From Chitinophaga pollutisoli (GTDB taxonomy: Bacteria > Bacteroidota > Bacteroidia > Chitinophagales > Chitinophagaceae): 64,000 nt of DNA. The translations under genes were made by a program, and so were the position numbers. The stretch's first letter is position 1, and each line of letters starts with the position of its first letter. The DNA is taken from NCBI RefSeq assembly GCF_038396755.1, contig NZ_CP149822.1, positions 3,472,001 to 3,536,000 on the forward strand, given 5' to 3'. Below the pieces are notes generated by a model. It did no database searches, had not been told where the DNA came from, and worked only from the letters and a program-made list of their open reading frames with translations. This document shows positions 6,173 to 19,943 of this stretch, piece by piece.

Positions 6173-7504
6173 TTAACTGTTGAGCAATACATAAAAAGTG
6201 GTACCCTTTTCGGGGATGCTGTTTAGTTTCAGCTGCCCGCCATGCATCTGGATAATTTGCTGGCTGAGGCTCAGCCCGATGCCGGAACCGGTTTTTTTGG
6301 TGGTGAAGAACGGAATGAAAATCTTCTCTTGCGCGTCCGGGTCGATGCCGGGACCGTTATCGGTGATTTCGATGATCACCTGTTGCCCGTTGAACGAGCC
6401 TTTCACGGAAATGAGCGGCTGGTCGGTTTGGTCCAGCGCGTCCATGGAATTTTTGATGAGATTGATGAGCACCATCTGCAGCAGTGTTTCGTCGGCGTGT
6501 ATCTCGATGTTGTCCGGTGAAACGTGGGAGCGGTAGCGGATGCCCGCGGCTTTCATGTCGGCCAGCAGCAGGTTGCTCACCGAGTGGATGAGCTGCTTCA
6601 GATTGATGGTGGTGAATTGCGGCTTGGGGAGCGTGGTGTAATCGCGGTAGGCGTTCACGAAATTCATGATGCCCTTGCTGCGGCTTTCGATGGTTTCGAG
6701 TGCTTCGCGGAGGTCACCCACGGCGTCGTTCTGCTCGTCGGTAGCGGCGAGGTCGTACTGCACGATGTCTTGCATGGTGCCGATGAGGCTCACGATGGGC
6801 GTCACCGAATTCATGATTTCGTGGCGCAGGATCTTGGTAAGATTCTGCCAGGCTTCGAGTTCTTTTTGCTGCAGTTCCGCGTGAATATTCTGCAGCGAAA
6901 TCAGTTTCACCAACCGCCCCTGCAGCCTTACGCTCGCCGCCTGGATCGAAAGTTGCTGGCCGTTTTGGGTGGCGTAAAGCGTTTTATGACCGGCGGGCAA
7001 TTGCATGAGGAGCCCCGCCAGATCGGGGTGCACGTTTTTCAGCTCGTCGATATACCGGAGCCGGTAAATGCCGAGCAGCCGGAAGGCCGCGGGGTTGATG
7101 AGTTCTATCTTCCCGTCCGTATCAAAGGAAAAAACGCCGATGCTGATGTGCTGGATGATCGTATCGATATATTTAAGATTGGCTTCCCTTTCCGCCCGCG
7201 TTTGCCGGAAAGCTTCCAGGACTTCGTTGAACTGGTGGTTAAGGGCGCTGAAACTCTTACCCAGCTTATTGTCTGCGCTAAATCGGATGGAAAAATCCTC
7301 GTACCGGATGGCCTCCAGGAACAACGTCAGTTTCCGGTTAACGCGGTTGAGATAATGATATAACGACACCACCTGCGCAATAAGGAAAGGGACCACGAGC
7401 CATATCATCAGCGGGTAACCGGCCGACCACAACGCAAACCCCGCCGCCACGGTGGCGATGAACAGCACAAGGCGCAACAGGATGATGACGCTGAAACGGT
7501 TCAT
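6173..7504 (-). CDS. NtrY-like sensor histidine kinase
   Basis: A 443-residue kinase with two closely spaced N-terminal transmembrane helices (about 7-28 and 31-50) and almost no periplasmic loop, so it probably senses an intramembrane or cytoplasmic signal. A PAS domain follows (about 110-200), then a phosphoacceptor helix RHEIMNSVTP with His near 228, and a HATPase domain with N box (NLIKNSMDAL), G1 (DNGPGID) and G2 (GSGIGLSLSQQ). It starts 1 base after the regulator gene and is its evident partner. NtrY/NtrB-like kinases typically pair with sigma-54 regulators, as here. Confidence 0.9.
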   Translation of the reverse strand: MNRFSVIILLRLVLFIATVAAGFALWSAGYPLMIWLVVPFLIAQVVSLYHYLNRVNRKLTLFLEAIRYEDFSIRFSADNKLGKSFSALNHQFNEVLEAFRQTRAEREANLKYIDTIIQHISIGVFSFDTDGKIELINPAAFRLLGIYRLRYIDELKNVHPDLAGLLMQLPAGHKTLYATQNGQQLSIQAASVRLQGRLVKLISLQNIHAELQQKELEAWQNLTKILRHEIMNSVTPIVSLIGTMQDIVQYDLAATDEQNDAVGDLREALETIESRSKGIMNFVNAYRDYTTLPKPQFTTINLKQLIHSVSNLLLADMKAAGIRYRSHVSPDNIEIHADETLLQMVLINLIKNSMDALDQTDQPLISVKGSFNGQQVIIEITDNGPGIDPDAQEKIFIPFFTTKKTGSGIGLSLSQQIIQMHGGQLKLNSIPEKGTTFYVLLNS

Positions 7505-7505
7505 A

Positions 7506-8852
7506 TCAGAGATTGTATTTTTCCATGCGGCGGTACAGCGCGGCGCGGCTCAAACCCAGTTCCTTGGCGGCGTCAGTGATATTGCCGTTGCATTGCTTCA
7601 GGGCTTGGGCGATCATATTCCTTTCCATATCTTCCAGGTTGAAACCCGTGTCCAGCTTCTCCGCCGATGCCGCTGATTTTACGAATACGTCCTTCGGCAT
7701 GAGGGTTTTGCCCTGGCACAAAATCACCGCCCGCTCGATGGCGTGCTGCAATTCGCGGATGTTGCCCGGCCAGTCGTAATTCTCCAGTTGGGTGATGAGG
7801 GTTTCGTGTAAAAATGCGACGGGACGGTTATATTTCTTGCGGTACATCCCGAGGAAATATTCGGCCAGGGGCACGATGTCTTCCCGCCTTTCGCGCAACG
7901 GCGGCAGGTGCACTTCGATGGTGTTGATGCGGTACAGCAAGTCTTGCCGGAATTGCCCCGAAGCCGCCAGCTGCTGGATATTCTTGTTGGTGGCGGAAAT
8001 GAGCCGCACGTCGATGGGAATTTGTTTGTTGGAGCCAACCCGCGTCACCTGACGGTTCTGCAAAACGGTCAGCAGTTTCGCCTGGAAAGGGATGGAAATA
8101 TTCCCGATCTCGTCCAGGAAAATGGTGCCGCCCGCGGCTTCTTCGAACCGGCCGGCGCGGTCGTCTCTCGCGTCGGTGAAGGCGCCTTTGACGTGGCCGA
8201 ACAGTTCGCTTTCGAAAAGGGTTTCGCTGAGGGCGCCGAGGTCCACCGGCACGATGGATTTTTCTTTCCGCGCGCTGAGGGCGTGGATGTGCCGGGCCAG
8301 AAGGTCTTTCCCCGTCCCGTTTTCGCCGAGGATGAGGATATTGGCGTCCGTTCCGGCGACGCGGCCCACGGTTTCGAGGACTTCCTGCATGGCCGGACTA
8401 TCGCCGATGAGCACGTTACCGGTGTGGAGCGTGGCGCCGCCGGCTTTTTTGTCTTGCTTTGCCTGGTGGGCGGCCACGGCGGTTTGCATGGTGGCGAGCA
8501 GTTTATCGTTTTCCCAGGGCTTGAGCACGAAGTCGGCCGCGCCGGCTTTGATGGCGCGCACGGCCATTTCCACGTCGCCATAGGCGGTGAAGAGGACCAC
8601 GGTGGCTTTGGGATTGATGTCGAGGATGCGGTCGAGCCATTCGAAGCCTTCTTTGCCGCTGGAGAGGTCGCGGGTGAAGTTCATGTCCAGCAGGATGACG
8701 TCGTAATCGAAATTGGTGACGAGATAGGGGATTTTCTGCGGGTTCTTTTCGAAATCAACCTGGGCGAAATGCCTTTTAAGGAGGAGCCTTGCGGCGCGGA
8801 GCACGTCCACGTCGTCGTCCACGATCAGAATTTTACCTTGCTGGATGCTCAT
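7506..8852 (-). CDS. NtrC-family sigma-54-dependent response regulator
   Basis: A 448-residue bacterial enhancer-binding protein. The receiver domain (about 5-125) has the acidic pocket DDD at 12-14, phosphoacceptor Asp56 and Lys in LKPW. The AAA+ domain (about 145-385) has Walker A GENGTGKD, the sigma-54 contact loop as GAFTDA rather than canonical GAFTGA, and Walker B GGTIFLDE. A Fis-type helix-turn-helix ends the protein (NITDAAKELGLSRAALYRR). ATG 8852 is chosen because the receiver domain begins right after it; the upstream open frame to 8963 has no domain. It is divergent from the efflux operon, whose leader holds a sigma-54 promoter and two palindromes, its likely target. Confidence 0.93.
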   Translation of the reverse strand: MSIQQGKILIVDDDVDVLRAARLLLKRHFAQVDFEKNPQKIPYLVTNFDYDVILLDMNFTRDLSSGKEGFEWLDRILDINPKATVVLFTAYGDVEMAVRAIKAGAADFVLKPWENDKLLATMQTAVAAHQAKQDKKAGGATLHTGNVLIGDSPAMQEVLETVGRVAGTDANILILGENGTGKDLLARHIHALSARKEKSIVPVDLGALSETLFESELFGHVKGAFTDARDDRAGRFEEAAGGTIFLDEIGNISIPFQAKLLTVLQNRQVTRVGSNKQIPIDVRLISATNKNIQQLAASGQFRQDLLYRINTIEVHLPPLRERREDIVPLAEYFLGMYRKKYNRPVAFLHETLITQLENYDWPGNIRELQHAIERAVILCQGKTLMPKDVFVKSAASAEKLDTGFNLEDMERNMIAQALKQCNGNITDAAKELGLSRAALYRRMEKYNL

Positions 8853-9025
8853 GAATATAGGATTAATGCGTTTTTGGCTGATGACTGCAAAACGTGTTCC
8901 GGGATGGGTGCCCCTCCGGCCGGAGGAGCCCTGTTTTTGGCCGGAACGGCCCTGCTGTGGCAATATTAAACAAACATTCGGGATCCCGTAAGGTTAATTT
9001 GACGGCCCCGGTTCCGGCGCCCGCC

Positions 9026-9041
9026 TGTCCGGATTCGGACA
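9026..9041. promoter_or_regulatory. Probable enhancer site 1 (TGTCCGGATTCGGACA)
   Basis: A perfect palindrome with 6-bp arms and a 4-base spacer, centred about 119 bases before the predicted sigma-54 transcription start. That is the usual distance for NtrC-family activators. Assignment to the neighbouring regulator is inference from position and spacing. Confidence 0.65.
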
Positions 9042-9046
9042 CCCTT

Positions 9047-9062
9047 TGTCCGCTTTGGAACA
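9047..9062. promoter_or_regulatory. Probable enhancer site 2 (TGTCCGCTTTGGAACA)
   Basis: An imperfect copy of site 1 (TGTCC-N6-GAACA). The two centres are 21 bp apart, two helical turns, so two regulator dimers would sit on the same DNA face as in tandem NtrC-type enhancers. Its centre is about 98 bases before the predicted transcription start. Confidence 0.6.
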
Positions 9063-9125
9063 GCGCCCGCCCGGTGGCTTTCATCTAAATTGGCCATGGT
9101 ATTGGGTTTCAGGGTTTGGCATGGC

Positions 9126-9141
9126 TTGGCACATGGATTGA
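9126..9141 (+). promoter_or_regulatory. Sigma-54 promoter (-24/-12)
   Basis: TTGGCAC-A-TGGA-TTGA matches the sigma-54 consensus TTGGCACG-N4-TTGC with the exact spacing; the departures are A for G at the end of the -24 element and A for C at -12. The GG at 9128-9129 sets transcription start near 9153, 14 bases before ATG 9167. It also argues against a start at 9116, whose codons would run through the promoter. Confidence 0.8.
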
Positions 9142-9166
9142 CTTTACCTGTCCAGCAATTTTAGTC

Positions 9167-10414
9167 ATGGACAGACAGATCAAAAAGAAATATTGGACCA
9201 AACAACGCCTGTTCCTCTACGGAGGCGGCGGAACGGTAGTGCTCCTCCTGCTCTGGAGCTTCATCTTCGCTGACAAGCGCAGCAAGCTGAACGTGGAGAA
9301 GGACAAAATCACCGTTTCTAAGGTCACCCAGGGCACTTTTGACGAGTATATCTCCGTCACCGCCGTTGTTCATCCCCTCAAAACCATCCGGCTCGACGCC
9401 ATCGAAGGCGGGTATGTTGCCCGCAAATTCATGGAAGGCGGCAGCATGGTGAAAGCCGGCGATTCCATCCTCCGCCTGGAAAACCAGCGGCTGATGATGG
9501 ATTTCGTGAACCGGGAAACCGAAATGTACCGTCTCATCAACGAACTGCAAAACACAAGGCTGCGCCTCAAACAGGACCGTTTCTCCCTCGAAAAGACCCT
9601 CAGCGACCTCGATTTCCAGGTAGACCAGGCGAAGGATCTCTTCGAACGGAATCATAAGCTGTTCAAGGACAAGGTGGTAGCCGAACAGGAATACCTCCGC
9701 ACCAAGCGCGAATACGAGCGCCTCGACAAACAGCGCAAGATCGAAATACAGTCGCAGTCGTACCAGCTGGAAAACGCCACCACGCAGATCGCGCAGCTGG
9801 AAGGCACCATCGCGCGGACGCAGCGGAACCTCAGCATGATGAAGGAAAACCTGGCCAACCTCGTGGTGCGCGCCCCGGTAGACGGCCAGCTGTCCAGCAT
9901 CAACGTGGAAGTGGGTACCAGCATCCAGGCGGGGCAGAACATCGGTCAGATCGACGACCTGGACGGGTTCAAGATGCGGGCGGAAGTCGACGAGCATTAC
10001 ATTTCCCGCATTTTCGCGGGGCTGAAAGCCAATTTCGATTTTAACGGGAAAGCCAATGAAATGGTGATCTCCAAAGTATATCCGGAAGTGAAAAACGGGC
10101 GGTTTGAGGTAGACATGAACTTTGTGCAGGCTGCACCGGAAGGCATCCGCCGCGGGCAATCCTCTCCTATCCGCCTGGAACTGGGCAAATCGTCCGAAGC
10201 TTTACTTTTGCCTGCGGGCGGATTCTTCTCCGACACCGGGGGCAACTGGGTGTACGTCGTGGAAAACGGCGGCAAGCGGGCCGTGAAGCGCAAGATCTCC
10301 CTCGGTCGTAAAAACCCCGTATATTTCGAAGTGCTGGAAGGGCTCAAACCCGGTGACCAGGTCATCACTTCCTCTTACGAGAACTTCGGGAACAAGGAAG
10401 TCCTGGAATTCTGA
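9167..10414 (+). CDS. HlyD/MacA-type membrane fusion protein (first)
   Basis: A 415-residue periplasmic adaptor linking an inner-membrane ABC exporter to TolC. One N-terminal membrane helix (about residues 14-34) anchors it. The lipoyl-like half motif (IEGGYVARKFMEGGSMVKAGDSILRLE), a long coiled-coil hairpin (about 95-230) and the second lipoyl half (VRAPVDGQLSSINVEVGTSI) follow, then beta-barrel and membrane-proximal domains. ATG 9167 is chosen because an upstream frame from 9116 overlaps the sigma-54 promoter. First gene of the efflux operon; its ATPase starts 37 bases downstream. Confidence 0.9.
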   Translation: MDRQIKKKYWTKQRLFLYGGGGTVVLLLLWSFIFADKRSKLNVEKDKITVSKVTQGTFDEYISVTAVVHPLKTIRLDAIEGGYVARKFMEGGSMVKAGDSILRLENQRLMMDFVNRETEMYRLINELQNTRLRLKQDRFSLEKTLSDLDFQVDQAKDLFERNHKLFKDKVVAEQEYLRTKREYERLDKQRKIEIQSQSYQLENATTQIAQLEGTIARTQRNLSMMKENLANLVVRAPVDGQLSSINVEVGTSIQAGQNIGQIDDLDGFKMRAEVDEHYISRIFAGLKANFDFNGKANEMVISKVYPEVKNGRFEVDMNFVQAAPEGIRRGQSSPIRLELGKSSEALLLPAGGFFSDTGGNWVYVVENGGKRAVKRKISLGRKNPVYFEVLEGLKPGDQVITSSYENFGNKEVLEF

Positions 10415-10451
10415 CCCACCCAAATCTTATCAAAATCTTCAATCGTCAACA

Positions 10452-11141
<690 letters not shown>

Positions 11142-11161
11142 CACCAGAAAAAATTAAAATC

Positions 11162-11383
11162 ATGATACCACATTGCCCGGGACATATCAGCCTTTTGCCG
11201 GACCCCGGTTCGCTGGTGCGCTGCTTTACCGGCGGGAACGCCGCCGATGAAGGGTTCCAGGCGATGATGGTGATGCCGTCCCTGTTATTTCCCTTGCTGC
11301 TGGTCCTGTTCGCGGGGCTTTGCATGCTCAACCAGTTCCGCCGGAACCGGGGTTCCGGGTCTGTCAATACCGAGAATATTTAA
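11162..11383 (+). CDS. Possible small single-pass membrane protein
   Basis: A 73-codon ATG frame lies between the ATPase and the permease (20 and 22 bases away). Residues about 38-57 are a hydrophobic segment followed by FRRNRG, giving a plausible helix with a positive cytoplasmic end. I recognise no family. It fills the gap without overlap and keeps operon spacing, which supports it, but its short length and Gly/Pro-rich N-terminus leave it uncertain. It could be a small accessory subunit or untranslated spacer. Confidence 0.35.
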   Translation: MIPHCPGHISLLPDPGSLVRCFTGGNAADEGFQAMMVMPSLLFPLLLVLFAGLCMLNQFRRNRGSGSVNTENI

Positions 11384-11405
11384 CCTGCATAACCCTTTGT
11401 TCAAT

Positions 11406-13772
11406 ATGTACATGCTCAGAAATCATATCAAGATCGCCTGGAGGAATCTCTGGAACAACAAAGTGTTCGGGGTGATCAATATCGCCGGGCTTACGATCGG
11501 GATGACGGCCTGTATGTTCATCCTGCTTTGGGTGGCCAATGAGTGGAGCTTCAACCGTTTCCATGAAAAGCTGCCTCGTATTTACCAGGTGTATGAGCAT
11601 CAATACTATTCCAACAACGAAATGCTCACTACCACGGCCACACCCGGGCCGCTGGCGGAGAAGCTCCGGACCGAAGTGCCGGGCATCACCCAGGTGGCTT
11701 CCATCAGCTGGAACGCGGAAAAATTGCTGTCGGTAGGAGATAAGAACCTTAAATTCCAGGGGCATTATACCGAGAGTCCTTTCTTCAACATATTCAGCTT
11801 TCCCTTCGTGGAAGGCAGTGCCGCGGGGGCGCTCACGCAGCCCGGCAATATCGTGCTGACCGACGAAACGGCGCGCGCGTTCTTCGGCGACGAAAAAGCC
11901 CTCGGCAAAACGATCCGCCTCGAAAACGCGAAAGACTACACCGTATCCGGCGTGGTGAAATCGCCTGGCGAGGCGAGCACCGTCAAATTCGCCTTCCTGT
12001 TGCCCATGCAGGAATTGAAGACGGAACATCCATGGCTTTCGAGCTGGGAGGCCAACGCGCCCCGAACCTACGTGCTCCTCAGCGAACAGGCCGATCTTAC
12101 GAAAGTGAACGCCGCGGCGAAAGACATTGTGAAGCGCAACGCACAAGGTTCCACGACCGAATTATTCCTGTACCCCTTTTCCGATATTTACCTGAAAGGC
12201 ATTTTCAAAGATGGGAAGGAGCAGTCCGGCAGAATGGAATATGTGCGGTTGTTCATTATCGTGGCGGTGTTCGTGCTGTTGATCGCCTGCATCAATTTCA
12301 TGAACCTTTCCACCGCGCGGGCGGTGCAGCGCAGCAAGGAAGTGGGCGTCCGGAAAAGTATCGGCGCGGGCAGGTTCTCGCTCGTGTCGCAGTTTTTGGG
12401 AGAATCGTTTGCGCTGGTTTTTATTTCGTCGCTGTTGTCGGTGATGTTGGTGTGGCTGTTGATGCCGATGTTTGAAAAGATGGTGAATACAGAGATCGCC
12501 GTTCCGGTTTTCACCTGGTATAATCTGCTGGGGCTCCTTTGCCTGGCGGTTTTCACCGGCTTCGCGGCAGGCAGTTACCCTGCTTTTTACCTTTCTTCCC
12601 TCAACCCCATCTCTACGCTTAAAGGCGGCATGCTGCGGCTGAAGTCGTCGGCCGTGTGGCTGCGGAAAGGGCTGGTGGTGTTCCAGTTCGGGATTTCCAC
12701 GGTGCTTATCGTGGCGGCTGCGCTCGTTTATCTGCAGATTCATTTCATTAAAAACCGCAACCTTGGCCTGAATAAAGACCAGGTGGTATATTTCACCAAC
12801 GAGGGCGGCGTAGAGAAAAATTTTGAAGCCTTCCGCCGCGCGCTCGACGGGAAGCCCGGCATCATGGCTTCCTGCGTAACCAACCAGCTGCCCATTGACG
12901 TGGGGAACAGCGGCCAGGGCGTGTCGTGGCCGGGTAAGGCGGCAACGGAAACCGTGCTTTTTGATAAGCTGGAAGTGGGATCGGGCTTCGACAAAACCAT
13001 GCAGCTCGAAATGCTGGAAGGGCGTACTTTTTCGGACGATCACCCCACGGACAAAGATGGGTTCGTGATCAACGAAACGGCGGTCCGGCTGATGAAACTG
13101 GAAAAACCCTGGGTCGGCCAGATCATCACAAACCAGGAAAAGCAAGGCCCCATCATCGGGGTAGTGAAGGATTTCGCGAGCCACCACATTGCGCGGAAAG
13201 CCGGGCCCATGCTCATCACACCGTTCGACGAAGCGGGCGGGAAAGTGCTCGTCCGCATCCATCCGGGAGAAGCCGCGGCCGCCATGGCGAGCATCGGCGA
13301 AGTGTACAAACAATTCAACCCGCAATATCCCCTCGACCTGAAATTCATGGACGTGTTTTTCGAGAAGATTTACCGGAGCGAATCGGTGATCGGTAGATTA
13401 TCGACCGTGTTCACCGTGCTCGCGATTTTTATCGCCTGCCTGGGCCTCTTCGGGCTGGCGGCCTTCACGGCGCAGCAACGTACCAAAGAGATCGGCATCC
13501 GGAAAGTGCTGGGCGCCACCGTGGGGCAGATCCTCGTTCTGCTCAGCAAGGATTTTCTGCGGCTGGTGCTGGTGGCTGTGGCCATCGCATTGCCGCTGGC
13601 CGCGTATTTCATGAAAGGTTGGCTGGATCAGTTCTCCCTGCACATCGAAATCAGCTGGTGGATTTTCGCGGGAACGGCGCTGCTGTCGCTCGTGCTGGCG
13701 ATGTTGACGGTCAGTTACCAGTCGGTGCGCACCGCCCGGATGAACCCCGTTAAATCCCTGCGGGCCGAATAA
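11406..13772 (+). CDS. FtsX/MacB-type ABC transporter permease (first)
   Basis: A 788-residue permease with the eight-helix, duplicated layout of large Bacteroidota MacB-like proteins: helix 1 (about 20-42), a periplasmic MacB_PCD domain, three FtsX helices (about 280-420), a further helix near 430, a second periplasmic domain, and three C-terminal FtsX helices (about 675-780). Family motifs include NFMNLSTARAVQRSKEVGVRK, QQRTKEIGIRKVLGA and the ending RTARMNPVKSLRAE. ATG 11406 is taken; ATG 11412 is also possible, and the TTG at 11397 is less likely. It should pair with the ATPase upstream. Confidence 0.9.
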   Translation: MYMLRNHIKIAWRNLWNNKVFGVINIAGLTIGMTACMFILLWVANEWSFNRFHEKLPRIYQVYEHQYYSNNEMLTTTATPGPLAEKLRTEVPGITQVASISWNAEKLLSVGDKNLKFQGHYTESPFFNIFSFPFVEGSAAGALTQPGNIVLTDETARAFFGDEKALGKTIRLENAKDYTVSGVVKSPGEASTVKFAFLLPMQELKTEHPWLSSWEANAPRTYVLLSEQADLTKVNAAAKDIVKRNAQGSTTELFLYPFSDIYLKGIFKDGKEQSGRMEYVRLFIIVAVFVLLIACINFMNLSTARAVQRSKEVGVRKSIGAGRFSLVSQFLGESFALVFISSLLSVMLVWLLMPMFEKMVNTEIAVPVFTWYNLLGLLCLAVFTGFAAGSYPAFYLSSLNPISTLKGGMLRLKSSAVWLRKGLVVFQFGISTVLIVAAALVYLQIHFIKNRNLGLNKDQVVYFTNEGGVEKNFEAFRRALDGKPGIMASCVTNQLPIDVGNSGQGVSWPGKAATETVLFDKLEVGSGFDKTMQLEMLEGRTFSDDHPTDKDGFVINETAVRLMKLEKPWVGQIITNQEKQGPIIGVVKDFASHHIARKAGPMLITPFDEAGGKVLVRIHPGEAAAAMASIGEVYKQFNPQYPLDLKFMDVFFEKIYRSESVIGRLSTVFTVLAIFIACLGLFGLAAFTAQQRTKEIGIRKVLGATVGQILVLLSKDFLRLVLVAVAIALPLAAYFMKGWLDQFSLHIEISWWIFAGTALLSLVLAMLTVSYQSVRTARMNPVKSLRAE

Positions 13773-13799: not shown

Positions 13800-16212
13800 A
13801 TGTGGAGAAATTATATCAAAATCGCTTTCCGTAACATCTGGAAAGCCAAGCAGGTAACCTTTGTTAACGTAGTAGGTCTTTCGGTAGCCATCGCCGCGGC
13901 CATGCTGCTGTGCATGACGGTGTACCGGGAGTTTTCCTTCGATAATTTCCATGAGAAAGGCGACCGGATTTTCAGTGTGTACAAAGATATTCGCTATCCC
14001 GACAAGGCCGACGTGATCCGCAATATGCCGCATCCCATGGGGCCCGCGATGAAGGCGGAGCTGCCCGGCGTGAAGGAAGCGGTGCGCTTCTTCAGCAATT
14101 CCGTGGCAGTCCGCGTAAACGGCGTGCAGCATACAGTTTCGGGAACGTTTACAGAGCCTTCGTTCATGCAGATTTTCAGTTTCCCGCTGGTTAAAGGCGC
14201 GGCACAACTGGATCTGACTGACATCGTGCTGTCTGAAAGAACGGCCGAAAACCTGTTTGGCGCGGAAGATGCTGTCGGGAAGCAGTTGGAAATAAAGATC
14301 GGGGAACAATGGAAACCGCTGACGGTAACCGGTGTGTTGCAAAACGCCCCCGAAAACTCCACCGTGGAATTCGCCGCACTCGTGCGGCTGGAAAATCATA
14401 TCGCCTATCCCCAGAATAACGGCAATTGGTTCAATATCAATCTCGATACTTTCGTGGAACTGGAGCCGGGCACCGATCCCCGCACTGTTGAGCGCGCCAG
14501 CAAAGCCATGCTGGAGAAATATTACGGAGAAGACATCGAACGGCAAAAGAAAGGCGGCGCGAAGGCAGGTCCGCTCGGAGAATACCAGCTGCTGGGGCTT
14601 GTTCCGATGAAAGACGTGCATTTTTCCCCGAATTCCAATCTTGGGGGAGAAGAAACCCCTGGTGCTGATGTTGCTCTTCATCGCGGGTTTCCTGCTGTTC
14701 ATCGCCAGCATCAATTTCGTTAACCTGACCCTCGCCCGGTCGTTTACCCGTGCCCGTGAAGTGGGCATGCGCAAGGTGATGGGAGCCGGGAAGCTCCAGC
14801 TGAGCCTGCAATTGTGGGGTGAAGCGGTGCTGTTGTTCCTGATATCGCTGCTGATCGGCGGTGTGATTGCTTACCTGTTGCTTCCCGGATACAATTCGTT
14901 GTTCAAATCCGGCGTGAGCTTTTCCATCCTGCTGGAGCCCAAATTCCTTGCAGGCATCCTGTTGACGCTGTTGGTGGTGACCGCGCTCGCGGGCGGATAT
15001 CCGGCCCTGCTGATGGCGCGGACGCAGACCTTGCTCGTGCTGAAAGGGAAAATGACGACCGGCAGGAAGAACTACTTCCGCAATTCGCTCATCGTGACCC
15101 AGTTCGTATTTTCCTGCCTGCTGATTATCGCCACGCTGATCGCCTGGCGGCAAATGAGCTATCTGCGCAACAAGCCCCTGGGCTACAATACTTCCGAAGT
15201 CATCAGCGTTCCCGTGGGCGCAAAGGAAAATGGGAATGCCGTACTTGAGCGCCTCCGGGCCGGCCTGAAAGGACAGCCAGGCATCCTGTCCATCACAGGC
15301 GCCAATACCAACTTCGGTCGCGGGCTCGATAACAGTTCCTCTACTTCCATCATTTCCTGGGACCATGAGGGCAAGGAGTTCCGGGCCAACTGGCAGGGCG
15401 TTTCCACGGATTACGTGAAAACCATGAGCCTGCAGCTGACCGGCGGCCGCGATTTCTCCGCGGCGCTCGCGTCCGATTCGTCGGGATTCATCATTAACGA
15501 ACAGATGGCGCGGCAATTTGGCCCCGGCAAAGGGCATGTAGGCTACCGCTTCCGGCTCGACGATGAAGATCCCACAGAGTACACGGTGATTGGCGTGGTG
15601 AAGGATTATCATTTCAAATCCCTGCATAACCCTATCGATCCGCTGATATTGCATTTGATGGGGCCGGATGAAGCGCCTTCCTATATTTTCGTGCGCGTAA
15701 CGCCTGGAGAATTGACATCGTCGATGGACAGGATCGCCGCCGCCTGGAAGCGCGCGGCGCCGGAAACGCCCTTCATCGGGTCGTTCGTGAATGAGAACAC
15801 CGAGCGCCAGTATCGCACGGAAGCCACGCTGACGAGGGTGTTCATCAGCGGCGGGGTGCTCACGATCATCATTTCCTGCATGGGACTGTTTGCCATGGCC
15901 ATGCTCATCATCGGGCAGCGCACGCGGGAAATCGGGATCCGTAAAGTACTTGGCGCCAGCGCAACGGGTGTGGCCACGCTCATTTCCCGGGACTTCCTGG
16001 TGCTGGTGGGCGTCGCGATCCTCATCGCATCGCCGCTGGCGTATTTCCTGATGCGGCAATGGTTGATGGAATTCGCTTACCGGACAGACATCCATTGGAG
16101 CGTGTTCCTGCTGGCTGGCGGGATGGCCCTGCTGGTGGCGGCGCTCACGGTGAGCTTCCAGAGCGTACGGGCGGCATTAATGAATCCCGTTAAATCGTTA
16201 CGGACGGAATAG
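13800..16212 (+). pseudogene. FtsX/MacB-type ABC permease (second), split by one-base frameshift
   Basis: The first part (13800-14642) encodes helix 1 and the first periplasmic domain and ends in frame at ...KDVHFSPNSNL. The second part continues one frame over from the G5 run at 14643-14647 with GEKKPLVLMLLFIAG and the remaining FtsX helices, second periplasmic domain and ending ALMNPVKSLRTE. Removing one G gives an uninterrupted 803-residue protein like the preceding permease. Either the assembly has an extra G or the gene is truly disrupted. The flanking operon genes are intact, and neither half would work alone. The C-terminal half read alone opens at TTG 14641. Confidence 0.85.
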
Positions 16213-16244: not shown

Positions 16245-16907
16245 ATGATACAACTGCGTAATATTTCAAAGCATTATCCGGTGGGATTTGGGAAACACGA
16301 AATTTTGAGAGACGTGAGCCTGGATATTCAGCAGGGAGAATTTGTGTCGATCATGGGGCCTTCGGGTTCCGGGAAATCGACGCTGCTGCATATCCTGGGG
16401 ATGCTGGAAGATGCTTCGGAAGGCGAGTATCTTTTCCAGGAAGAGCCCGTGCATAAAATGAGCGACAAGAAAAGAACGCAGCTGCACCGCGGCGCGATCG
16501 GGTTCGTATTCCAGGCGTATCATCTGATCGACGAGCTGACGGTATACGAAAATATTGAAACGCCGCTGTTGTACAAAAACGTGCCTTCGGGTGAGCGTAA
16601 GAGCCGGGTGGCCGATATTTTGGACCGGTTCAACATGGTGGCGAAGAAGGATCTTTTCCCCACGCAGCTTTCGGGCGGGCAGCAGCAGCTGGTGGGCATC
16701 GCAAGGGCCATAGTGGCCGAGCCCGCCGTTATTTTTGCCGACGAGCCCACGGGCAACCTGCATTCCGACCAGGCCCGGCAGATCATGGAATTGTTCTCCG
16801 AACTGAATAAGCGGGACGGCATCACGATCGTCCAGGTAACCCACTCCGACCTGAACGCCGGTTACGGCAACCGGGTTGTACAAATCAAGGACGGGAGGTT
16901 GCAATAG
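16245..16907 (+). CDS. ABC transporter ATPase, MacB/LolD type (second)
   Basis: A 220-residue ATPase with Walker A GPSGSGKST, Q-loop FVFQAYHLIDEL, signature LSGGQQQLVGIARA, Walker [12 protein letters not shown] and switch VTHS. It is clearly related to the first ATPase of the operon but diverged (LVG replaces RVA after the signature). It follows the frameshifted permease by 32 bases and precedes tolC, so it probably powers the second permease, giving two ABC exporter modules in one operon. Confidence 0.92.
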   Translation: MIQLRNISKHYPVGFGKHEILRDVSLDIQQGEFVSIMGPSGSGKSTLLHILGMLEDASEGEYLFQEEPVHKMSDKKRTQLHRGAIGFVFQAYHLIDELTVYENIETPLLYKNVPSGERKSRVADILDRFNMVAKKDLFPTQLSGGQQQLVGIARAIVAEPAVIFADEPTGNLHSDQARQIMELFSELNKRDGITIVQVTHSDLNAGYGNRVVQIKDGRLQ

Positions 16908-17057
16908 GCCGCCCGTTATTTTTTCCGGAAGTTAAAAACTCATCATATGATGTTTTGCATTAAATTCGTGTGGCCCCTTGCCGCCCGCAGGATGTTTGTG
17001 CCTTTAAATCAGGAAACCGGCATGGTATCACAACAATTCAAATATTTTCGACCGGCT

Positions 17058-18512
17058 ATGAAAATTACGTCCGCTTTTACCGCCTTGTTGGTGGCATTCA
17101 TTATTTCGGTGCAGCCCGTAATGGCGCAGGAAGAAGCCTGGACATACCAGCGTTGCTACGACTATGCCCTCCGCAATAACCTGACGCTGCAACAAAGCGT
17201 GCTGAACAAACGGCTGGCGGAGCTGACGCTGAAAACAGACCGCATGTCGATGCTGCCAACGCTGACGGGTTCTGCCAGCGGCGGTTATATCTTCGGCCGG
17301 TCCATCAACATTACCACCAACCAATTCGATAACGAAGCTACGTTCAACGCCAGCATCGGCCTTTCCGCCGGCGCCGACCTGTTTGGGTGGTTTTCGAAAA
17401 GGAATATTGTGGCATCTTCCAAATACGAAGTATACGCGCAGAATTATCTGTTGGAAAAGGCGCGGAACGATATGGGCGTGAACGTGGCGAATGCATTTCT
17501 CCAGATTCTCCTGGCCCAGGAGCAGGTGAAAATCAGCCGTGCGCAGGTAGACCTGAGCAAGACACAGCTGGATAATACGAAGAAACTTGTGCTGGCGGGC
17601 TCCGTTCCGGAAAGCAACCAGGCCGACCTGGAAGCCCAGCTTGCGCGAGACAGCTCCACATTGGTAACGGCCGAAAATTCCTCCATTTTACGGACGCTCC
17701 AGATGAAAGCTTTGCTGAATCTGGGCTTTGAGGTGCCCTTCGCCACTAAAATCCCCGACAACGTAGCCGCGGTGCCCGTGATCAACCTGGCGGAAAATTC
17801 CCCTGAAATGATCTTCAGCTCGGCACTGTCTATCCAACCGCAATACCGTTCGGATGAAATGCGCGTGAAATCGGCCGACAAATCGCTGGCCGCCGCCAAA
17901 GGCGCCATGTACCCCCGCCTCCGGGCCAATGCAGGCGCGGATACCCGTCTTGCCGGCGGTACCCGGTATGAACAATTCGGGCCGGATAACTGGGTAACTT
18001 ATGTGTCCAGCATCGGTTTCCCTAAATCCAATCCCCTCGACACTGTATTCACTTACGATCAGTTCAACAACCGCGCAACGCGGAAATATACCACCGGCCG
18101 CCAGCTGGCCGACAACTTCGGCCAGAACATCGGCGTTTCCCTCAGCTTCCCTATCTTCAACGGATGGCAGCTGCGCGGACAGGTGGAACGCGCCAAAATA
18201 GAACTGGAAAACCGGAAGCTCTCGCTGGATATCAACCGCCTGCAGCTCCGCCAGGACGTATACACGGCGCATGCCGATGCCGTGGGCGCCTTCCAGAAAT
18301 ACCAGGCCGCCATCACCACGGAACAGGCTTCCCAGAAAGCGTTCGACTTCGCCACCAAGCGTTTTGAAGTCGGCCTTATGAACACGGTCGAGTATGTGAC
18401 CACCCAAACAAATCTTTTCAAGGCGCAGATCGAACGCGTATCGGCCTTGTATGATTATATTTTCAAAGTTAAACTACTGGAATTCTATCGCGATCAGAGA
18501 ATTACGCTGTAG
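17058..18512 (+). CDS. TolC-family outer-membrane efflux protein
   Basis: A 484-residue outer-membrane channel subunit. Signal peptide residues 1-23 (MKITSAFTALLVAFIISVQP, then VMAQ). The repeated helical OEP motifs and the two barrel strands per repeat fit TolC; the opening W-x-Y-x-x-C-x-D-Y-A-L-x-x-N-L motif is typical of Bacteroidota members. ATG 17058 is chosen because it opens directly on the signal peptide; frames open from 16947 add unrelated residues. It supplies the exit duct for the adaptors and ABC modules encoded around it. Confidence 0.92.
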   Translation: MKITSAFTALLVAFIISVQPVMAQEEAWTYQRCYDYALRNNLTLQQSVLNKRLAELTLKTDRMSMLPTLTGSASGGYIFGRSINITTNQFDNEATFNASIGLSAGADLFGWFSKRNIVASSKYEVYAQNYLLEKARNDMGVNVANAFLQILLAQEQVKISRAQVDLSKTQLDNTKKLVLAGSVPESNQADLEAQLARDSSTLVTAENSSILRTLQMKALLNLGFEVPFATKIPDNVAAVPVINLAENSPEMIFSSALSIQPQYRSDEMRVKSADKSLAAAKGAMYPRLRANAGADTRLAGGTRYEQFGPDNWVTYVSSIGFPKSNPLDTVFTYDQFNNRATRKYTTGRQLADNFGQNIGVSLSFPIFNGWQLRGQVERAKIELENRKLSLDINRLQLRQDVYTAHADAVGAFQKYQAAITTEQASQKAFDFATKRFEVGLMNTVEYVTTQTNLFKAQIERVSALYDYIFKVKLLEFYRDQRITL

Positions 18513-18542: not shown

Positions 18543-19943
18543 ATGAAGAAAAGAAAAAAGCTTTTTTTATGGATAGGGCTCATCGTGGCCCTTATCGTCA
18601 TTTTTGCCCTGGTACGCGGTTCCGGGAAGGATGAAGGACTGAAAGTGGCCGTAGACAAGGCTGCTGACAGGGATATCATCGAAGTGGTGTCTGCATCCGG
18701 CAAGATTTACCCGGAAATCGAAGTGAAAGTAAGCTCCGATGTTTCGGGTGAGATCACGCAGCTGCTGGTGAAAGAAGGGGATTCGGTAAAGAAGGGGCAG
18801 ACGTTGGCGCACATATACGCAGACATCTACGCTTCCAACCGCGACCGCCAGATCGCCGCATTGTCGCAAACGGAAGCCGAGCTCGCCAATTCCTCCGCGG
18901 CGCTCGCAGCGTTCAAAGCGCGCCTCGACCAGGCCAAAGCGACCTTCGACCGAAACAACGAACTGTACAAGGATAAAGTCATCAGCCGCCAGGAATTTGA
19001 AACGGCTGAAGCAACCTACAAAGCCGCCCTGTCGGATTACAACGCCGCCAGCCAGCGCATCAACGCCAATAAATTCGCAGTTGCCAGCGCGCAGGCCAAC
19101 CTGGCGGAAGCGAACAAGAACCTCAGCCGTACCACCATCGTGGCGCCTACCGGCGGCACCGTGAGCCTGCTTTCCGTGGAAGCGGGCGAGCGCGTGGTGG
19201 GGACAGGGCAGATGTCGGGTACGGAAATGCTCCGCATCGCCGATATGTCGACCATGGAAGTGCAGGTAGATGTAGGTGAAAACGACATCCCGAAAGTAAA
19301 AGTGAACGATTCCGCCCTCATCGAGGTAGACGCCTATACGAACCGCAAGTTCAAAGGCCTGGTGACCCAAATCGCCAGCTCCTCCAAAGGCGCCGCCACG
19401 GCTTCCAGTACCTCCACTTCCTCCGCGGAACAGGTAACCAACTACGTGGTGAGGATCCGCATCCTGTCGTCGTCCTACGCCGATCTGCTGGACCCCGACA
19501 ATCCGCGCCGCTTTCCCTTCCGGCCGGGTATGAGCGCCAACGTCGACATCCAGACGCGGACGGAAAAGAACATCTTATCCATCCCCATCAACGCCGTAAC
19601 CACCCGCGACATGTCTGACACGGCGAAGAAGGATAAGTCCGCCGCCAAAAAGGATAAGCCGGCGGAAAACAACGCCAGCGGCGCCACGCCGAACGACGGC
19701 AGTGCCCAGCAGCAGCGGCAGGACTTCAAGGAAGTGGTGTTTGTGCTCCAGCCCGACAATACCGTACAGATCCGCGAAGTGAAAACCGGCATCCAGGACG
19801 ATAACAACATCCAGATCACTTCCGGCCTCAAAGCCGGTGAAACGGTAGTGAGCGGGCCTTATACCGCTGTATCGCGCACGTTGGAGAACGGTAAGAAAGT
19901 GAAGGTGGTGCCGCGTTCCGAGTTATTCGAGGGAACCAAGTAG
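18543..19943 (+). CDS. HlyD/MacA-type membrane fusion protein (second)
   Basis: A 466-residue adaptor with one N-terminal helix (about 7-23), lipoyl half domains (ASGKIYPEIEVKVSSDVSGE ... IVAPTGGTVSLLSVEAGERV), an alpha-hairpin (about 95-190) and a beta-barrel. Two low-complexity insertions stand out: a Ser/Thr/Ala-rich stretch near 279-300 and a Lys/Asp/Ala/Gln-rich stretch near 357-395, probably surface loops. It is the last gene of the operon, 30 bases after tolC, and ends before a strong terminator. It likely couples to the second permease/ATPase pair. Confidence 0.9.
   Translation: MKKRKKLFLWIGLIVALIVIFALVRGSGKDEGLKVAVDKAADRDIIEVVSASGKIYPEIEVKVSSDVSGEITQLLVKEGDSVKKGQTLAHIYADIYASNRDRQIAALSQTEAELANSSAALAAFKARLDQAKATFDRNNELYKDKVISRQEFETAEATYKAALSDYNAASQRINANKFAVASAQANLAEANKNLSRTTIVAPTGGTVSLLSVEAGERVVGTGQMSGTEMLRIADMSTMEVQVDVGENDIPKVKVNDSALIEVDAYTNRKFKGLVTQIASSSKGAATASSTSTSSAEQVTNYVVRIRILSSSYADLLDPDNPRRFPFRPGMSANVDIQTRTEKNILSIPINAVTTRDMSDTAKKDKSAAKKDKPAENNASGATPNDGSAQQQRQDFKEVVFVLQPDNTVQIREVKTGIQDDNNIQITSGLKAGETVVSGPYTAVSRTLENGKKVKVVPRSELFEGTK

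Follow-up and report, generated by a model that had tools for sequence, protein, structure and literature searches.

What switches on the double ABC exporter operon of Chitinophaga pollutisoli, and does the circuit encoded opposite it serve that operon only? The stretch of DNA considered here (64,000 nucleotides, hereafter the window) carries the operon in the order adaptor, ATPase, permease, split permease, ATPase, TolC-like protein, adaptor (Table 1), and the transcription unit probably ends at the second adaptor.

Table 1. Features of the exporter locus, in coordinates of the window
Feature	Coordinates	Strand	Remarks
Sensor kinase	6173..7504	-	PAS, HEIMNS H-box (by eye), HATPase
NtrC-family response regulator / predicted sigma-54 activator	7506..8852	-	receiver, AAA+ and Fis-type HTH
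Palindrome 1 (distal), predicted activator site	9026..9041	.	TGTCCGGATTCGGACA
Palindrome 2 (proximal), predicted activator site	9047..9062	.	TGTCCGCTTTGGAACA
Second -24 motif copy, TTGGCAT	9116..9122	+	direct repeat, 10 bp 5' of the box's own
Sigma-54-type -24/-12 box, TTGGCAC-ATGGA-TTGAC	9126..9142	+	TTGGCACATGGATTGAC; -12 non-canonical
HlyD/MacA-type periplasmic adaptor, first operon gene	9167..10414	+	ATG at 9167; best model DarC, below cut-off
Stand-alone MacB/DarD-like ABC ATPase 1	10353..11141	+	longest-ORF start overlaps adaptor
Duplicated MacB_PCD/FtsX permease 1	11397..13772	+	ADOP-like, below cut-off
Duplicated permease 2	13800..16212	+	two overlapping frames, 13800-14723 and 14641-16212
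Stand-alone ABC ATPase 2	16245..16907	+	
TolC-like outer-membrane efflux protein	16947..18512	+	
Second periplasmic adaptor	18543..19943	+	MacA-like, below cut-off

The adaptor and ATPases score best with DarC and DarD of the darobactin exporter DarBCD, all below the respective cut-offs. Six intact permeases match the ADOP model over nearly its full length at 291-333 bits and do not reach its curated cut-off of 622 bits (NCBIfam TIGR03434), and the permeases are therefore termed ADOP-like here rather than members. Homology of ATPase 1 starts near residue 29-34 of its longest open reading frame. The split of permease 2 reflects either a frameshift in this genome or else a sequence error; the core-operon permeases of two other Chitinophaga genomes (G001 and G041) are uninterrupted, at ~800 aa. 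A short open frame (~11160-11385) in the gap that separates ATPase 1 from permease 1 encodes a hydrophobic peptide ending ...NQFRRNRGSGSVNTENI, possibly a small membrane protein.

For the DNA upstream of the first adaptor, an earlier note had claimed a promoter of exact sigma-54 spacing at 9126-9141, preceded by two palindromes 21 bp apart and about 98 and 119 bases before the predicted start, and divergent genes for a sigma-54 activator and its kinase. The geometry is as described: the palindromes are 21 bp apart start to start, the box begins 79 bp past the start of palindrome 2, and with the -12 element set at 9141 the predicted +1 falls at 9153 and the palindromes are centred near -98 and -119. 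The activator and kinase are likewise present (8852-7506 and 7504-6173). The spacing of the box is right, but its -12 element reads TTGAC and not the canonical TTGC. The extra copy of the -24 motif, whose 69-bp distance from palindrome 2 is frequent in relatives, may have arisen by tandem duplication. The arrangement supports a sigma-54-type promoter, with two palindromes that resemble enhancer sites, facing a putative NtrC-family activator and a membrane kinase. Separately, an AT-rich block (of the GCAATATTAAACAAAGATTT type) at 8960-8980, 5' of the regulator, recurs in the correctly oriented genus loci examined and is perhaps the regulator's own primary-sigma promoter.

Related genomes, which the earlier note had named as the place to look for the paired sites, retain them at orthologous operons both within and outside the genus. 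The adaptor was found in 73 of 119 genomes searched, comprising all 72 Chitinophaga and one of 47 others. In each of the 72 genus genomes the palindrome pair with 21-bp spacing lies 5' of the adaptor, a YTGGCAY-N5-TTG box with invariant GGCA and TTG starts 41-60 bp before the adaptor ATG, and an NtrC-type regulator is adjacent and divergent; the kinase adjoins the regulator in 42/42 genus loci with 5 kb of flank. Measured from the first base of palindrome 2, the box of these promoters lies at one of three distances, 68 bp (33 promoters), 69 bp (23) or 79 bp (16), the last being the clade of the window (L016-L031). As the -24 motif of the window is doubled 10 bp apart, a one-turn insertion appears to have preserved the phase. 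The sole non-genus relative with the adaptor in this search (G110, 43% identical) had neither the regulator within 5 kb nor the palindrome pair.

Wider relatives were reached by a contig scan of the best 80 of 551 relatives, in which 53 loci were taken as non-Chitinophaga (L211-L264 without L252), 51 of them with sufficient upstream DNA. All 51 carry a pair at p<=0.01 (200 dinucleotide shuffles each), with spacings of 20 bp (20 loci), 21 bp (25), 22 bp (5) and 23 bp (1), and the genera represented include Spirosoma, Dyadobacter, Runella, Larkinella, Emticicia, Marinoscillum and Ferruginibacter. A box with at most one mismatch is present in 38 of these loci; taking only the first box within range in each, the distance is 67-70 or 79-82 bp without exception. 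No box within one mismatch was found in the other 13, including six Saprospiraceae MAGs and two Lacihabitans; on inspection, TGGCAC or TGGCAT occupies the corresponding position in these, and either the spacer is shorter or the -12 is altered. In the Saprospiraceae MAGs L236, L239 and L249, the -24/-12 spacer is seemingly one base shorter (TGGCAC-N4-TTG).

The gene for sigma-54 itself, whose absence would have spoken against the earlier note, is present: the genome (6.08 Mb, one contig) encodes one RpoN, with an RRTVAKYRE box and a full-length alignment to the sigma-54 chains of solved structures. The -12 element is the unusual part of the promoter. GG-N10-G is retained in 72/72 genus promoters and a C at -12 in only 8/72, with TTGA/G/T replacing TTGC in most promoters; position 16 of the 17-mer is A34 G19 T11 C8 in the 72 genus promoters and G24 A8 C5 T1 in the 38 non-genus boxes. 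For E. coli sigma-54 promoters, PMC4591121 gives 17-mer positions 3, 4, 14, 15 and 16 as seldom deviating, and its table includes pspA itself with TTGT at -12. The loss of the -12 C in 64 of the 72 genus promoters could be taken to mean that sigma-54 plays no role: a primary-sigma or ECF factor would read the box, and the palindromes would be targets of an ordinary repressor or activator. The genome-wide count of the canonical YTGGCAYN5TTGC, 6 against 14 for the control, would agree with this. This reading is nevertheless very improbable given the invariance of the GG-N10-G spacing, GGCA and TTG, the AAA+ sigma-54 activator adjoining the promoter and the phasing of site-to-box distances over 57-82 bp, which fits enhancer action; pspA, moreover, shows that the -12 C can be missing from an E. 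coli promoter of this class (PMC4591121 table). A sigma-54-type promoter thus remains the preferred reading of the box.

Individual motifs were compared with control patterns across the whole genome. Across the 6.08 Mb, a lone palindrome with at most one mismatch occurs at 80 places and the reversed control pattern at 163, such that a scan for single palindromes is uninformative by itself; a lone box exceeds its control only slightly (22 vs 17). It is through pairing, phasing and conservation (72/72 in the genus and 51/51 outside) that the sites are more than chance. Within the window, the only pair scoring at least 10 on a PWM trained on the 72 genus promoters, the window's own sites included, is that at 9026-9062 (36.6). 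Exact TGTCC-N6-GGACA occurs three times in the genome, palindrome 1 among them, and all three lie 5' of permease transcription units. In a further 365 kb, drawn from loci selected for a permease or a single-site match, 9/9 pairs scoring at least 20 sit just 5' of a permease. Nine stretches were examined around some of the 50 listed (of 80) single-palindrome places; five (L106, L108, L109, L111 and L112) contain no pair scoring at least 10, and L110 holds one weak pair (14.4) away from any permease. Two sigma-54-like boxes, TTGGCATACTTCTTGG and TTGGCACGATGGTTGC, were also observed on the minus strand less than 200 bp apart at G000:C1:170506-170698.

The earlier note had regarded the circuit as dedicated to the double ABC exporter, and on this point it is not supported. 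The other two exact palindromes of the genome and a third locus (at most one mismatch) belong to pairs 21-22 bp apart, directly 5' of unlinked two-PCD MacB/FtsX permeases, each with two PCD and two FtsX stretches. PF12704 genes were surveyed in four Chitinophaga, the window's genome, G001, G008 and G041. A pair at p<=0.01 precedes 20/41 first-position two-PCD genes, a count that leaves out the window operon and scores the core-operon permeases L123, L155 and L184 as misses. The same threshold was passed by 0/9 internal two-PCD and 0/26 single-PCD genes, the latter including three half-genes of split permeases (247k, L148 and L149). Among the 21 first-position genes that do not pass, three are in core operons, eight have variant half-sites (by eye) and ten show nothing; one of the 20 that pass, L169, looks spurious, with a likely chance pair at -297. 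Dyadobacter sp. Leaf189 (G119), with counts covering 30 of 78 matches, has a pair at p<=0.01 at 9/16 first-position, 1/9 internal and 2/5 'single' genes. Judged by their neighbours, the two passing 'single' genes resemble pieces of split two-PCD genes, and one has an intergenic pair in common with a divergent permease. With pairs at unlinked permeases in the window's genome and four others, the sites look like those of a regulon rather than of a dedicated circuit.

The dispersed promoters also share the phasing of the core operon. Pair-bearing promoters numbered 27, made up of 19 with p<=0.01 (the 20 minus L169) and eight with variant half-sites that were picked by eye after the sequences had been seen (L146, L154, L159, L163, L164, L171, L175 and 4829). 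Their best box lies at 57-58 bp (5) or 66-70 bp (22). The 66-70 interval, which was set around the genus operon distances, holds 22/27 promoters against ~5/80 by chance (p ~2e-22), and the 57-58 class was noticed later; 22/27 best boxes are above the 95% null of a mononucleotide shuffle. Overall, box-to-site distances cluster about one helical turn apart, at 57-58, 66-70 and 79-82 bp. Paralogous permeases could bring their promoters along on duplication, in which case the sites would control the core operon only and the orphan-permease copies would be duplicated promoters without function. This is very unlikely: the dispersed permeases are 29-40% identical to permease 1, their flanks are otherwise unalike (by eye), and the sites, spacing and phase nonetheless persist across several genomes and two orders. 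A sigma-54 regulon of the exporter core and scattered permeases is the likely interpretation.

Most of the dispersed permeases stand apart from obvious partners. A related ATPase or adaptor was not found in the examined flanks of 19/20 non-core loci (~5 kb per side for L297-L312; 0.7-6.7 kb for L104, L105, L107 and L113), the exception being L302, with two ATPases ~3.4 kb away.

The candidate activator has a receiver, a sigma-54 AAA+ domain and a Fis-type HTH, all above Pfam cut-offs. With activators of the NtrC/ZraR/AtoC type it has in common this domain order, tandem upstream sites and a -24/-12 promoter. It differs from them in reaching the NCBIfam cut-off of none of the 25 models listed, in a GAFTDA loop in place of GAFTGA (in all 8 orthologues aligned, and in 2/8 activators of this genome), in TGTCCG-N4-CGGACA sites about two turns apart with a degenerate -12 C, and in its predicted targets, which are exporters and orphan permeases. 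The best NCBIfam model of the kinase is AtoS, with a score far under the cut-off, and at its N-terminus a very short loop joins two hydrophobic segments. A short-loop, two-segment kinase recalls the intramembrane-sensing kinases of Bce modules, which likewise stand beside an FtsX-type ABC transporter. The present kinase differs in having a PAS domain, and the output here is a predicted sigma-54 activator. Bce modules such as BceRS-BceAB serve peptide sensing in Gram-positives (PMC10314905).

The genome encodes eight strong sigma-54 activator domains, with six further matches at only 21-34 bits. One of the eight, at a 252-kb locus, shares 43% identity and the GAFTDA loop with the regulator and resembles it in the HTH. 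In a second adaptor-TolC-ATPase-permease operon, at 243-255 kb, the box TTGGCATCCGGATTGGA stands 46 bp ahead of the first gene, and the operon also has a related palindrome pair with a different spacing (19-bp offset) and a low PWM score at the first site. This activator and its own kinase lie ~2.5 kb beyond the second exporter operon (L295:3175-5773, L114:797-929), and activator and exporter are therefore near each other twice in this genome. With eight strong activators, including this paralogue, the assignment of an activator to each site is provisional. The palindromes of the window could be bound by the paralogue or another of the eight, with the adjacent regulator acting elsewhere. We regard this as unlikely, even though the paralogue is similar in HTH and loop and sits near an exporter with a sigma-54-like box of its own, and the variant half-sites of G041 may point to more than a single specificity. 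The regulator was also not found in the upstream flank (<=3 kb) of 16/51 pair-bearing loci outside the genus. Conversely, a regulator match at 57-69% identity occurs in that flank in the other 35/51, the regulator is divergent from and adjacent to these sites in 72/72 genus genomes, and the sites of the second operon differ in offset and score. The adjacent regulator is thus preferred as the activator of the window's promoter. The variant sites of G041, with a TGTATCAAAACCGGACA-type proximal element, are those of permeases L159, L163, L164, L171, L172, L174, L175 and L177, and are perhaps the target of a different activator.

These observations can be assembled into a mechanism, and with good confidence 9026-9142 is predicted to be a sigma-54 promoter that carries sites of the divergent regulator and drives both the core operon and the unlinked permeases. 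The region would hold two tandem dimer sites for the regulator encoded at 7506-8852. Once the membrane kinase is activated, perhaps by envelope damage, by a toxin as the earlier note had predicted, or by the state of the transporter as the inducer, a phosphorelay would yield phosphorylated regulator that binds both palindromes, two helical turns apart, and assembles into an AAA+ ring; the register of 57-58, 66-70 or 79-82 bp would determine which face of the DNA it occupies. The ring would remodel RpoN-polymerase waiting at the box and turn the operon on, from the first adaptor through the ATPases, permeases and TolC-like protein to the second adaptor. The same activator or a close paralogue would turn on the unlinked single-gene units of duplicated, ATPase-less permeases. 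Classical enhancer action is proposed because the tandem sites are phased, a -24/-12 box is present and an AAA+ activator is adjacent.

The orphan permeases, we infer, borrow the ATPase and adaptor of the core operon. Whether this amounts to export with exchangeable permeases, in which a nearly invariant core ATPase, the adaptors and the TolC-like channel serve scattered permeases made only when the same enhancer fires, is close to an even call, with the odds slightly against. Two observations hint at it: ATPase 1 is 92-93% identical in two genus relatives while adaptors of such species are 70-78% identical, and G041 has 20 two-half permease genes, five of them in the core operon, with only five related ATPases at E<=1e-45, two of these in the core operon. 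If true, it would explain the long-unassigned duplicated orphan permeases.

The only direct prior art found, in a literature search that left most subscription journals outside, is PMC12316311, and the search found no published activator, binding site or regulon for these permeases. From a promoter scan around the consensus TGGCACN5-7TTGCT, that study finds COG0577 FtsX-like permeases of Bacteroidia enriched for predicted sigma-54 promoters, a result that it presents as the first evidence for this permease family. Like the present analysis, it ties sigma-54 promoters to this class of permease in Bacteroidota; its passages on the subject, unlike the present locus, offer no activator, site pair or phasing, and the strings 'UAS' and 'upstream activat' are absent from its main text. 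The analysis here adds a sequence-defined candidate regulon (paired palindromes, fixed phase, non-canonical -12) for permeases that a genome paper lists only as duplicated orphans with no assigned function, makes the role of the duplicated permeases and their partner ATPase directly testable in non-pathogenic Bacteroidota, and extends sigma-54 enhancer logic, with phasing that is measurable in two orders, into a phylum for which few worked-out circuits were found. In two Dyadobacter genomes, 28 and 33 duplicated orphan permeases are annotated as function unknown in PMC11573002. Their arrangement can differ between genera: duplicated permeases of Chitinophaga are mostly scattered singles, unlike those of Dyadobacter sp. 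Leaf189, in which fifteen duplicated permease genes lie on one strand within 48 kb of contig 1 (~1.239-1.287 Mb), downstream of the core adaptor.
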